A DNA stretch of 38,572 nt from the NCBI GenBank assembly GCA_002898575.1, contig BEHT01000034.1:1-38572 (forward strand), written 5' to 3'. Positions 221 to 27,327 of this stretch are shown here, in pieces. The DNA comes from a bacterium HR17 (GTDB taxonomy: Bacteria; Armatimonadota; Fervidibacteria; Fervidibacterales; Fervidibacteraceae). The notes under the pieces are model-generated. The model made no database searches. It was not told the DNA's origin and saw only the letters and a program-made list of their open reading frames with translations. Within the stretch, counting starts at the first letter, position 1; each line of letters opens with the position of its first letter. The position numbers and the translations under genes were made by a program.

Positions 221-1336
221 CTAAGCACCATCTTGGACGAAAGGGAGACCGAAGCGCAAAGCCAACTCTGCCCGCATCAGTTCGCGACCAAGATAGGCAG
301 CGTGGTCAAGTTGTGTTACCAAACCTAACTCAACAATGGTGTCGCACAGCGTCTTGGCATCTTCACCTTCAATGATGTGCTGCAAGCGGTCTTTGTAGTC
401 GTAATGCTCCACGACGATAATGCCCTTGTCAGGTTGGGGGATGATGACGAAATAACCAGCCTTGTCCAGTTTCAACGGGCGCTGAGTTGGCTGGGCTCGG
501 ATGCGAGGCACTGGCTGCATGATAGCATCTTGCCTTAAAACCCCTTGACAACCACAAGGTCGTGCTTGGGCGCGGGCTTCCACCTCCGCAGCGATGCGTT
601 CGGCGTCTTCGCAACCGATCAAATCCACGACTGTTACCTGTTGGCGAAAATGTTCTATCTCTTGCAGCGTGACATTTCGCAGGAACGGGCGCTTCCCTTT
701 CGCACCGATAATGCGCTGTCGCTCATCTACGCCGTTCTCCGCCAGAGCCAACAACGCTTGCCCGCTCATGTGCCCTTTGGGCTCTTGACCAGCAACGATG
801 AGGGTGTGGATGCATGGGTTCGTGACAATGTTCTTGATCACTTTGTCAATGCCGATGTTCTCCGTTTCCGTCTTACCGACGATAGCCAAACCGCGTGGAC
901 GCAATTGCGCTAACTTTTCGGGCAAATCGGTGCTGGCAAGGGTAGAGACGGCAACGCTACCTTCTCGGTCAAGGACAAAGTATTCACCTGCCACGATCGG
1001 CCAATCGCCGTCAGTTCGCACATCAAAGGAGCACGATGGTCGTTGAACTATTGTCAAGGGCAAGACTCCTTCCGCAGCAGTGTAGAAGCGGTTTTCGGCG
1101 ACGGCGGGATAACATGGGTCGCAACCCAAGCAGGCATACTTGATGGGTTCCATGCCTGCGAGGAATTGGTCAATGTCCGCTCGCAAAGCATCGGCTTCTT
1201 CGCCCGTGATATTGGCTGTTTCGTCTCGCAATGCGAGGAGAGTATCTCGCAGGCAACCGCACTTTCGGCACTTAGGTGTGTCAAAGGCTTGTCTCAAGTC
1301 CGCTCGCAATTGGCGCAATATTTCATCTTGCGACAT
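221..1336 (-). CDS. MtrA-like corrinoid protein with DUF4346 C-terminus
   Basis: This 371-residue protein has three parts. Residues 20-76 hold two cysteine clusters (C23, C26, C28 and C69, C72, C75) that could bind a metal or Fe-S cluster. Residues about 104-255 match subunit A of tetrahydromethanopterin S-methyltransferase (MtrA), with WPIVAGEYF, TETENIGIDKVI, KGHMSGQA and IIGAKG. H189 in GHMSGQ aligns with the MtrA histidine known to be the lower axial ligand of the corrinoid cobalt, so B12 binding is likely. Residues about 290-370 resemble DUF4346 (HAAYLGREL near residues 345-353). Methanogen MtrA is membrane-anchored and acts in the MtrA-H complex; no anchor or other Mtr subunit is seen here. 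The gene overlaps the preceding membrane-protein gene by 14 bases and lies last in an ArsR-led operon. A methyl-carrier role acting on a metal or metalloid is inference only. Confidence 0.85.
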   Translation of the reverse strand: MSQDEILRQLRADLRQAFDTPKCRKCGCLRDTLLALRDETANITGEEADALRADIDQFLAGMEPIKYACLGCDPCYPAVAENRFYTAAEGVLPLTIVQRPSCSFDVRTDGDWPIVAGEYFVLDREGSVAVSTLASTDLPEKLAQLRPRGLAIVGKTETENIGIDKVIKNIVTNPCIHTLIVAGQEPKGHMSGQALLALAENGVDERQRIIGAKGKRPFLRNVTLQEIEHFRQQVTVVDLIGCEDAERIAAEVEARAQARPCGCQGVLRQDAIMQPVPRIRAQPTQRPLKLDKAGYFVIIPQPDKGIIVVEHYDYKDRLQHIIEGEDAKTLCDTIVELGLVTQLDHAAYLGRELMRAELALRFGLPFVQDGA

Positions 1337-1871
1337 CGCTTTTCACCTCCTGCCGTTGACAACAATCAGGGCAGCAACTTTGTCGCCGAAGCCACAAGAA
1401 ACCGCAACCAACCGACAACGCTGTGACAAGTGCTACCAGAGGTTTTGTCAATCCCAGCGCTTTTGCCCCAAACAAACCCAGCCAAACGCTCAGCATGGGT
1501 GAACCACAGCAGCCGACCAAAAAGCAAGTGCCCGTCCATAGTGCCGAACCTAATCCCACGCCGAACGCTGCACCTGCCACCGCTCGTTTGCGGTTGTATC
1601 GCCAATGCATCAAGGCATAAGCAGCGAAGGCAAAAGCCAAAGCGTAAGCGAAACCGAGGAAGTAGTCTTGATGTTGCAAGTAGCGCCTAAATCCATCGCG
1701 TGACAGAACGGTGGAAGTGGTTCGTATGACCTTGTCTTCCACGCAGTTGCCTTGCTCGTCCAGGACACAGATGACCTTTTGGTTCACCTGAGTAGTGCGG
1801 GACGCATAAACGACATGAGCGCTTATGACAAGGGCGAACACCGCCAACGGCAAAAAGCGAATCCATAGCAT
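1323..1871 (-). CDS. Cysteine-rich membrane protein in ArsR operon
   Basis: The protein has 182 residues: an N-terminal signal or anchor (about 1-24), an extracytoplasmic stretch with C35 and C43, then about four hydrophobic segments (70-90, 98-120, 124-142, 143-161). A CFLVGCCGSP motif (C116, C121, C122) lies at the edge of a membrane segment, and the tail has CCPDCC (C166, C167, C170, C171). Paired cysteines inside a membrane helix followed by a proline recall MerT-type mercury transporters, but overall similarity is too weak for a family call. It starts 6 bases after arsR and overlaps the MtrA-like gene, so the three are very probably co-transcribed. Metal or metalloid handling is inferred from the cysteines and from ArsR. 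Confidence 0.75.
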   Translation of the reverse strand: MLWIRFLPLAVFALVISAHVVYASRTTQVNQKVICVLDEQGNCVEDKVIRTTSTVLSRDGFRRYLQHQDYFLGFAYALAFAFAAYALMHWRYNRKRAVAGAAFGVGLGSALWTGTCFLVGCCGSPMLSVWLGLFGAKALGLTKPLVALVTALSVGCGFLWLRRQSCCPDCCQRQEVKSDVAR

Positions 1872-1877
1872 CGTTGG

Positions 1878-2270
1878 TCACCTCTCTTTCCTTCGGCTCG
1901 GTGGCAGTTTGCCTGAGCCGAGGGGGCATTTGCCGTCTACCCTCATTTGCAACCTTTGCTGCAGCCTTTCCCAATCCAGACGGGTTCGGGGTGTGTCCAA
2001 GTTGCCGAAAGTCGTTAGCAACTTTTTCACCAGTGGCTTGGCATCTTTGGCGACGGTGTAATAAACCCAGAGTCCCTCTTTGCGGTCACTAACGAGCCCA
2101 GCGTTTTTCAAGACGGCGAGGTGGCGGGAAAGGTTGGACTGGTTCACTTCCAGCGCATCCACAAGTTCGCAAACGCAAAACTCACTTTGCATCAGAACTT
2201 TCAGCACCCTAAGTCGGGTTTCATCGGCGAGTGCCTTGAGCACCTTGACAATTTCCTTCACAGTAGCCAT
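1878..2270 (-). CDS. arsR: ArsR/SmtB-family metalloid-responsive repressor
   Basis: This 130-residue winged-helix regulator shows the family pattern LADETRLRVLKVL at about 13-26 and the recognition-helix region NQSNLSRHLAVLKNAGLV at 43-60. The sequence EFCVCEL places C32 and C34 where E. coli ArsR has its As(III)-binding cysteines, and C115 is an additional C-terminal cysteine. In this family the repressor leaves DNA when thiol-binding metalloid or metal is bound. The ATG at 2270 is chosen because AAGGAG precedes it at good spacing; an upstream extension to 2300 would run through the operator. It is the first gene of a three-gene operon with the membrane protein and the MtrA-like protein. Confidence 0.9.
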   Translation of the reverse strand: MATVKEIVKVLKALADETRLRVLKVLMQSEFCVCELVDALEVNQSNLSRHLAVLKNAGLVSDRKEGLWVYYTVAKDAKPLVKKLLTTFGNLDTPRTRLDWERLQQRLQMRVDGKCPLGSGKLPPSRRKER

Positions 2271-2280
2271 CACTCTCCTT

Positions 2281-2305
2281 ATGAGTGTATGAGCAATCAC
2301 TCATG
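2281..2305 (-). promoter_or_regulatory. Putative ArsR/SmtB-type operator
   Basis: Just upstream of the arsR start lies TGAG, six bases, CTCA (2290-2303), which matches the TGAA-N6-TTCA layout of SmtB/ArsR operators. An overlapping perfect inverted repeat, ATGAGTG (2281-2287) with CACTCAT (2298-2304), shares the right arm. The site lies between a TTTACA-like -35 (about 2331-2336, minus strand) and the SD, as expected for autorepression. Binding is inferred from position and symmetry. Confidence 0.6.
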
Positions 2306-2355
2306 AACATGTCATGGTATTCAGCCGATGTAAAGGAGGGAAAAATGAAAGGTGG

Positions 2356-27135: not shown

Positions 27136-27210
27136 AAAGAGCGTGTTAAAGTGAGCGGTGTGCTCCCCTCACAATTGTGTGCGTCTTATCGCTCAAGGGC
27201 TGCAACAAAT

Positions 27211-27283
27211 GCGCCGGTAGCTCAGTCGGCAGAGCACCGGACTTTTAATCCGGGGGTCGCAGGTTCGACTCCTGCCCGGCGCA
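27211..27283 (+). tRNA. tRNA-Lys(UUU), copy 2
   Basis: This is a 73-base cloverleaf with anticodon loop CTTTTAA (UUU). It differs from copy 1 at acceptor position 6 (G instead of A, giving full pairing with CCGGCGC) and at one T-loop base (TTCGACT versus TTCGATT). It lies 44 bases before the dipeptide epimerase start, in the same direction, so it may share a transcript with that gene. Confidence 0.97.
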
Positions 27284-27327
27284 TTGATGTCTCATGCGTG
27301 ACACCTTCAAGTAAGGGGAACGGTGCG

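Follow-up and report, generated by a model that had tools for sequence, protein, structure and literature searches.

We report here a three-gene operon within the first 2.3 kb of a 38,572-nucleotide stretch of DNA (contig BEHT01000034.1; hereafter the window, meaning the whole stretch analysed) from bacterium HR17, a hot-spring bacterium of the phylum Armatimonadota. The operon encodes an ArsR/SmtB-family metalloregulator, a cysteine-rich membrane protein and a corrinoid-type protein built on the MtrA fold of methanogens. Taken together with its relatives, it suggests a so far undescribed route by which methyl transfer serves to handle toxic metals or arsenic. The link of the operon to metals is strong. 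That it is a corrinoid methyl-transfer unit induced by thiophilic metals or metalloids, resembling hgcAB under ArsR control but built on MtrA, is a proposition to which we give an even chance.

Background

To our knowledge, no dedicated corrinoid system for a toxic metal other than HgcAB has been established. HgcAB forms methylmercury via methyl-cobalamin, with S-adenosylmethionine as the methyl donor (PMC11588087), and ars genes often flank hgcAB (PMC7438021). In Pseudodesulfovibrio mercurii, hgcAB is controlled by an arsenic-responsive ArsR-like regulator, according to work cited in PMC10349881. The protein described below resembles HgcA in lying behind an ArsR regulator; HgcA, however, is of CFeSP-type fold, binds cobalt through a cysteine and carries a membrane domain of its own, whereas the window protein combines the MtrA fold with a histidine ligand.

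Results and discussion

An ArsR-headed operon with an operator-like repeat

The three open reading frames all lie on the minus strand, in the order arsR, membrane-protein gene, MtrA-like gene (Table 1). A sequence-only reading of the window had described them as a single ArsR-controlled unit with a 6-base gap between the first two genes and a 14-base overlap between the last two; these coordinates are confirmed and control as one unit is supported. Each gene is preceded by a plausible ribosome-binding site, that ahead of the MtrA-like frame being a strong AGGAGG. We place the arsR start at the ATG at position 2270, which has AAGGAG upstream, and consider the longer GTG start at 2300 unlikely. 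The regulator matches Pfam HTH_5 (1.1e-18) and, above its cut-off, NCBIfam NF033788 (101 bits versus 55). Numbered from this ATG, it carries the alpha-3 CxC metal site C32-V-C34, for which the earlier residue numbers were correct. The alpha-3 CxC motif occurs in As/Sb sensors as well as in Cd/Pb sensors, so that the motif alone does not fix the metal to which this ArsR would respond.

Two genomes of other genera that carry the same trio (G003 and G093, see below) have inverted repeats at the same position ahead of arsR as the repeat in the window, and the core TGCTCATA-A-TCAT is invariant in all three. The repeat fits the operator of an autoregulated ArsR, to which the regulator is predicted to bind.

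Table 1. Location of the operon's genes, motifs and domains in the window
Feature	Position	Strand	Basis or remark
MtrA-like protein, 371 aa: cysteine-rich N-domain, MtrA domain and PterinBD-DUF4346 domain	221..1336	-	Pfam/NCBIfam, AlphaFold2 and Foldseek
PterinBD-DUF4346 domain, residues 290-369	230..469	-	PF14251
MtrA domain, residues 110-258 (E159/N160 codons 857-862, H189 codon 770-772)	563..1009	-	PF04208
CxxCxxC motif, C69/C72/C75	1112..1132	-	Invariant in 25/25 full-length relatives
CxxCxC motif, C23/C26/C28	1253..1270	-	Invariant in 25/25 full-length relatives
Membrane protein, 182 aa, about four helices, GTCFLVGCCGSPML core, C-terminal SCCPDCC	1323..1871	-	Hydropathy, profiles
ArsR/SmtB-family metalloregulator, 130 aa, alpha-3 recognition region with C32-V-C34	1878..2270	-	Pfam HTH_5, NCBIfam NF033788
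Probable ArsR operator, inverted repeat ATGAGTG-N10-CACTCAT	2281..2304	.	Immediately ahead of the arsR ribosome-binding site

The window also contains two tRNA-Lys(TTT) genes, at 2353-2428 and 27210-27284; the former lies directly upstream of the operon and is a possible integration site.

The third gene encodes a protein with the ligand set of MtrA

The MtrA domain of the 371-residue protein scores far above the PF04208 cut-off (3.9e-44; 150.8 bits versus 25), and the DUF4346 tail named in the sequence-only reading is found with PF14251 at 5.1e-24. A domain of this kind also makes up the C-terminal portion of the dihydropteroate synthase-like proteins of TIGR00284. In its AlphaFold2 model (pLDDT 75) the protein adopts the Rossmann-type fold of MtrA: the top PDB matches retrieved by Foldseek are the MtrA structures 5laa and 5l8x, the former with E 6e-14 and a TM-score of 0.84 by target. 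H189, which had been singled out as the cobalt-ligand histidine, aligns with His84 of methanogen MtrA, the base-off/His-on cobalt ligand; E159 and N160 align with Glu54 and Asn55, the hydrogen-bond partner of that ligand and a corrinoid contact. All three residues are invariant in the 36 sequences compared (25 full-length relatives, 9 short relatives and the structures 5laa and 5l8x), from which we infer that the protein would hold a corrinoid. The two N-terminal cysteine clusters noted earlier proved equally real (Table 1).

With MtrA of the methanogen Mtr complex (5laa, 5l8x, 8q3v, 9qtr) the window protein shares the corrinoid fold, the equivalents of His84, Glu54 and Asn55, and the conserved loop after helix 3. 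It differs in its cysteine N-domain and DUF4346 domain, in its bacterial ArsR operon, which adds only the regulator and the membrane protein, and in having neither a membrane anchor nor mtrB-H neighbours; its score against TIGR01111, the model for Mtr-complex MtrA, stays below the cut-off (144 bits versus 249). The three-part architecture itself is that of a curated NCBI family, NF002128 (about 390 residues; PRK00964.1-6, 'tetrahydromethanopterin S-methyltransferase subunit A'), so that a new architecture is ruled out. That model covers residues 8-371 of the window protein at 379 bits, below its cut-off of 568, which was reached by none of the 497 genomes surveyed (296 of Nitrospirota and 201 of Armatimonadota), and it supplies the name MtrA with no further function assigned. 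Homology to HgcA is also ruled out: the protein has no match to the HgcA and CFeSP-type models (NF040863/PF03599) or to CdhD, and neither of the former is matched elsewhere in its genome.

A MerT-like membrane partner stands before two different corrinoid proteins

Scanned against Pfam and NCBIfam, the membrane protein matched no family above cut-off, MerT (PF02411) included. Its family profile nevertheless aligns with a MerT-like profile at an hhalign probability of 93.5, and one relative (L102) matches PF02411 directly at 5e-4, with 20.5 bits versus a cut-off of 32.9. The protein is probably a member of a distantly MerT-like family, and the term MerT-reminiscent applied to it earlier holds in that distant sense. 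Its AlphaFold model (pLDDT 52) was too poor for use.

When the survey genomes were searched with the family profile, ten strong matches (E < 1e-40) were obtained, in 10 of the 497 genomes, every one of them just upstream of a gene for a corrinoid protein. Eight of these partners are three-domain MtrA proteins (one frameshifted), one is a short MtrA (L102) and one is an HgcAB-like fusion. In the last case (L128 5644-8767; G393:C57, Nitrospirota) the order is ArsR, lipoprotein, membrane protein of the window type, CpaM and HgcAB-like fusion, with CpaM (NF043040; 264.6 versus 180) and the fusion (NF043039; 376 versus 285) both above cut-off. The same type of lipoprotein precedes the membrane protein and MtrA in L098 (E 3e-15). 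Because either an MtrA-like protein or an HgcAB-like fusion follows the membrane protein, two unrelated corrinoid folds alternate behind one partner. The comparison with HgcA made in the sequence-only reading is strengthened by this operon, which in turn offers a lead on the function of the uncharacterised HgcAB-like fusions.

The trio recurs within the Armatimonadota

The named relatives come from Armatimonadota or unclassified metagenome-assembled genomes, HR16 and SKYB36 among them. Recurrence in other genomes, which the earlier reading had set as its own test, was observed: the complete trio is present in two further genera of the phylum (G003 and G093). In G003, of the same family and a different genus, it is flanked by CzcB-like and CzcA-like genes, themselves part of an RND metal-efflux cluster, and is oriented opposite to them. 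Partial sets also occur, comprising the membrane protein and MtrA on a contig that begins just ahead of the pair (G063), the membrane protein with a frameshifted MtrA (G135), and MtrA with neither the membrane protein nor ArsR as partner (G055). Decayed copies were seen in G034 (L003 1495-1812, an in-frame ArsR-DUF4346 deletion fusion) and in G004 (L004 about 1501-1629, a small fragment), which indicates repeated loss of the operon in the phylum. One further variant (L043 9280-10077, G145) has lost the corrinoid core of its MtrA domain but retains DUF4346 and a cysteine stretch resembling CxxCxxC.

The host genome contains only three ArsR-family genes in 3.15 Mb, and the chance that one lies no more than two genes away from a given gene is roughly 0.4% (an estimate that assumes about 2,900 genes). 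Given this scarcity and the recurrence of the trio in other genera, chance co-location is ruled out. The genome also encodes an adenosylcobalamin-dependent NrdJ above its cut-off, which shows that the organism uses corrinoids and rules out the contrary suggestion raised by its missing PF02310. No MerA above cut-off was found in the host genome; in 1.98 Mb of it there was no ACR3, ArsM, ArsC-like or ArsI relative and no arsenite pump or reductase, and the same 1.98 Mb holds two P1B ATPases and one ArsP-like permease.

The operon resembles mer operons (MerR, MerT, MerA) in joining a metal regulator, a small cysteine-rich membrane protein with weak MerT profile similarity and a cytoplasmic enzyme, but it lacks MerR, MerP and MerA. 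With ars operons (ArsR with ACR3/ArsB, ArsC, ArsM or ArsP) it shares a CxC ArsR, and short relatives of its MtrA-like protein sit in true ars operons; it has, however, no arsenite pump or reductase of its own. A true ars or mer operon is therefore ruled out, and the label 'ars operon' used earlier does not apply in the strict sense, as ACR3, ArsB and ArsC are all missing from the operon.

Several relatives in other phyla and on plasmids lie among metal genes

In three Nitrospirota loci (L085, L086 and L087) ArsR directly precedes MtrA/DUF4346. A Pfam-positive MerT follows directly downstream in L086, and the neighbourhoods of L085 and L087 include genes for a thioredoxin-like protein, for a MerT-like protein and for a member of the MerR family, L087 lying also near ArsI/CadI, an ArsC-like phosphatase and ACR3. 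MerR and a thioredoxin-like protein accompany the copy in L104. On the Planococcus plasmid pA30H1 (L112 4345-8729), and likewise on pA26H3, the order is ArsR, HMA protein, P1B ATPase and MtrA/DUF4346, followed by an ISL3 transposase; the MtrA/DUF4346 protein bears extra ACGCD-type cysteine repeats, and the cassette is unmentioned in the paper on Planococcus strain ANT_H30. Across the relatives, As/Sb, Hg and Cd/Pb/Zn contexts all occur.

Shorter MtrA-like proteins of 235-260 residues, which have neither the cysteine N-domain nor DUF4346, are found in arsenic or metal operons of Nitrospirota and Armatimonadota (L108, L107, L106, L046, L045 and L047), and are probably annotated as methanogenesis subunits. 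L108 combines the short form with ArsR, ACR3 and ArsP, no ArsM being seen, and L046 with ArsR, ArsP, ArsM, an ArsC-like protein and ACR3. In L107 (8358-13148; G422:C48) an HgcA above cut-off lies about 2.5 kb upstream of a stretch encoding ArsR, short MtrA, thioredoxin and CcdA, on the same strand, with an ArsP permease between the two. Characterised ArsP-family permeases export methylarsenite.

Alternatively, the window protein could only sequester or deliver metal, its cysteine clusters binding the metal for efflux and its corrinoid fold serving as a relic or redox aid. Six invariant cysteines, a cysteine-rich membrane partner, the additional repeats in Planococcus and the G145 variant would all accord with such a role. 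We nonetheless regard it as very improbable, since a relic would not keep H189, E159 and N160 invariant in 25 full-length and 9 short relatives, and since the short forms, devoid of any cysteine domain, still occur in a metal context.

Proposed mechanism and direction of methyl transfer

As we envisage it, ArsR would repress the operon at the inverted repeat ahead of arsR and would be released when As(III), Sb(III) or a soft divalent metal binds its cysteines. The MerT-like protein may then move the metal or pass it on by way of cysteine pairs located in the membrane and on the cytoplasmic side. The MtrA-like protein would hold a corrinoid with H189 below the cobalt and E159 behind H189, and its six-cysteine N-domain could bind the metal itself or, instead, carry an iron-sulphur cluster for reducing the cobalt. 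The DUF4346 domain may supply or dock a methyl-pterin, a possible methyl donor proposed by domain name only. The methylated corrinoid would give its methyl group to the metal or metalloid, or else remove one, leading to expulsion or lower toxicity.

Methyl transfer by corrinoids can run in both directions, and the system might demethylate, a Co(I) corrinoid stripping the methyl group from methylmercury or methylarsenite onto a pterin as a corrinoid alternative to MerB or ArsI. Import of a substrate by the MerT-like protein would make sense in that case, and the Nitrospirota copy in L087 has a gene for an ArsI-family C-As lyase nearby. The nearest functional analogues known to be ArsR-linked, hgcAB, methylate, however (PMC11588087, PMC10349881), and the short MtrA proteins adjoin ArsP-family permeases, in L108 with no ArsM seen. 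We consider demethylation unlikely; the balance tips somewhat towards methylation, given that HgcAB-like fusions can take the place of MtrA and that ArsP genes adjoin the short forms.

Evidence for a possible role unrelated to metals

Several observations weigh against metal-induced methyl transfer. Nine three-domain relatives in Nitrospirota, together with a broken copy (L088-L096 and L100), lie directly upstream of parA-parB in neighbourhoods with no metal genes, although their cysteines and ligands are as in the window. In a tree of the MtrA domain this clade, which holds the nearest relatives outside the phylum, is sister to that of the window (99/94) and the other metal-linked groups branch elsewhere, from which it follows that a non-metal role for this type of protein exists somewhere. 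No recognised metal neighbours surround the copies in Paraburkholderia, G055, L097 and L109. The host genome, when searched, yielded no CFeSP, HgcA or PF02310 protein, and the view of DUF4346 as a pterin binder rests on the family name. Finally, a relative of the membrane protein on plasmid pPRO1 of Pelobacter propionicus (L245 5833-6180), an unannotated protein with a GCFLTGCCGSPML motif, has no corrinoid gene beside it; its gene is flanked on one side by one for DUF302 and on the other by one for a heavy-metal P-type (P1B) ATPase, which suggests that the membrane partner is linked to metals more generally.

Residue 344 is Asp in 16/16 of the other full-length members and Ser, Ala or Thr in the parA/parB clade. 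The link to metals may have been lost in that clade, or it may have been gained several times.

The chief rival explanation builds on this sister clade. It holds that the protein is an ordinary methyl carrier for one-carbon or corrinoid housekeeping, switched on protectively under metal poisoning, for example to feed methionine synthase or to repair corrinoid chemistry, with the metal acting as signal and not as substrate. The housekeeping position beside parA/parB, with identical cysteines and ligands, agrees with it, as does the pterin one-carbon chemistry suggested by the DUF4346 domain; in methanogens, moreover, a role for MtrA in supplying core methionine synthases has been predicted (PMC7857596). 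The operons examined showed no gene for methionine synthase, and a housekeeping carrier leaves unexplained the constant MerT-like partner, the replacement of MtrA by an HgcAB-like fusion and the short MtrA proteins with ACR3, ArsP and ArsM. We rate it as rather improbable, and metal-induced methyl transfer remains the reading that we prefer.

Novelty and implications

The sequence-only reading had presented the gene set as undescribed. That stands for the operon placement, for which no paper was found, and falls for the domain architecture, which is known. Our literature search, whose coverage did not extend to Haft's work on organometal selenoprotein neighbourhoods, returned no paper on MtrA in ars or ArsR operons and none that mentions DUF4346; in the literature covered, the exchange with HgcAB-like fusions was likewise not found.

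Why hgcAB is tied to ArsR and to arsenic genes is unsettled. Tentatively, since we think it possible but doubtful, the operon and its kin may represent a second class of corrinoid methyltransferase, independent of HgcA, inducible by metals or metalloids and built on MtrA, which could trade places with HgcAB-like fusions downstream of an ArsR and a MerT-like protein common to both. Metal-linked relatives occur in at least three phyla and also on plasmids, and in bacteria without hgcAB this class would serve as a dedicated means of adding methyl groups to, or removing them from, mercury, arsenic or another soft metal. If so, an MtrA-based counterpart that has its regulator type and membrane partner in common with HgcAB-like fusions would show that corrinoid chemistry on metals and metalloids arose more than once, genomes without hgcAB would join the possible methylators or demethylators, and HgcAB-like fusions, as well as bacterial MtrA proteins labelled as methanogenesis subunits, would gain a testable role.

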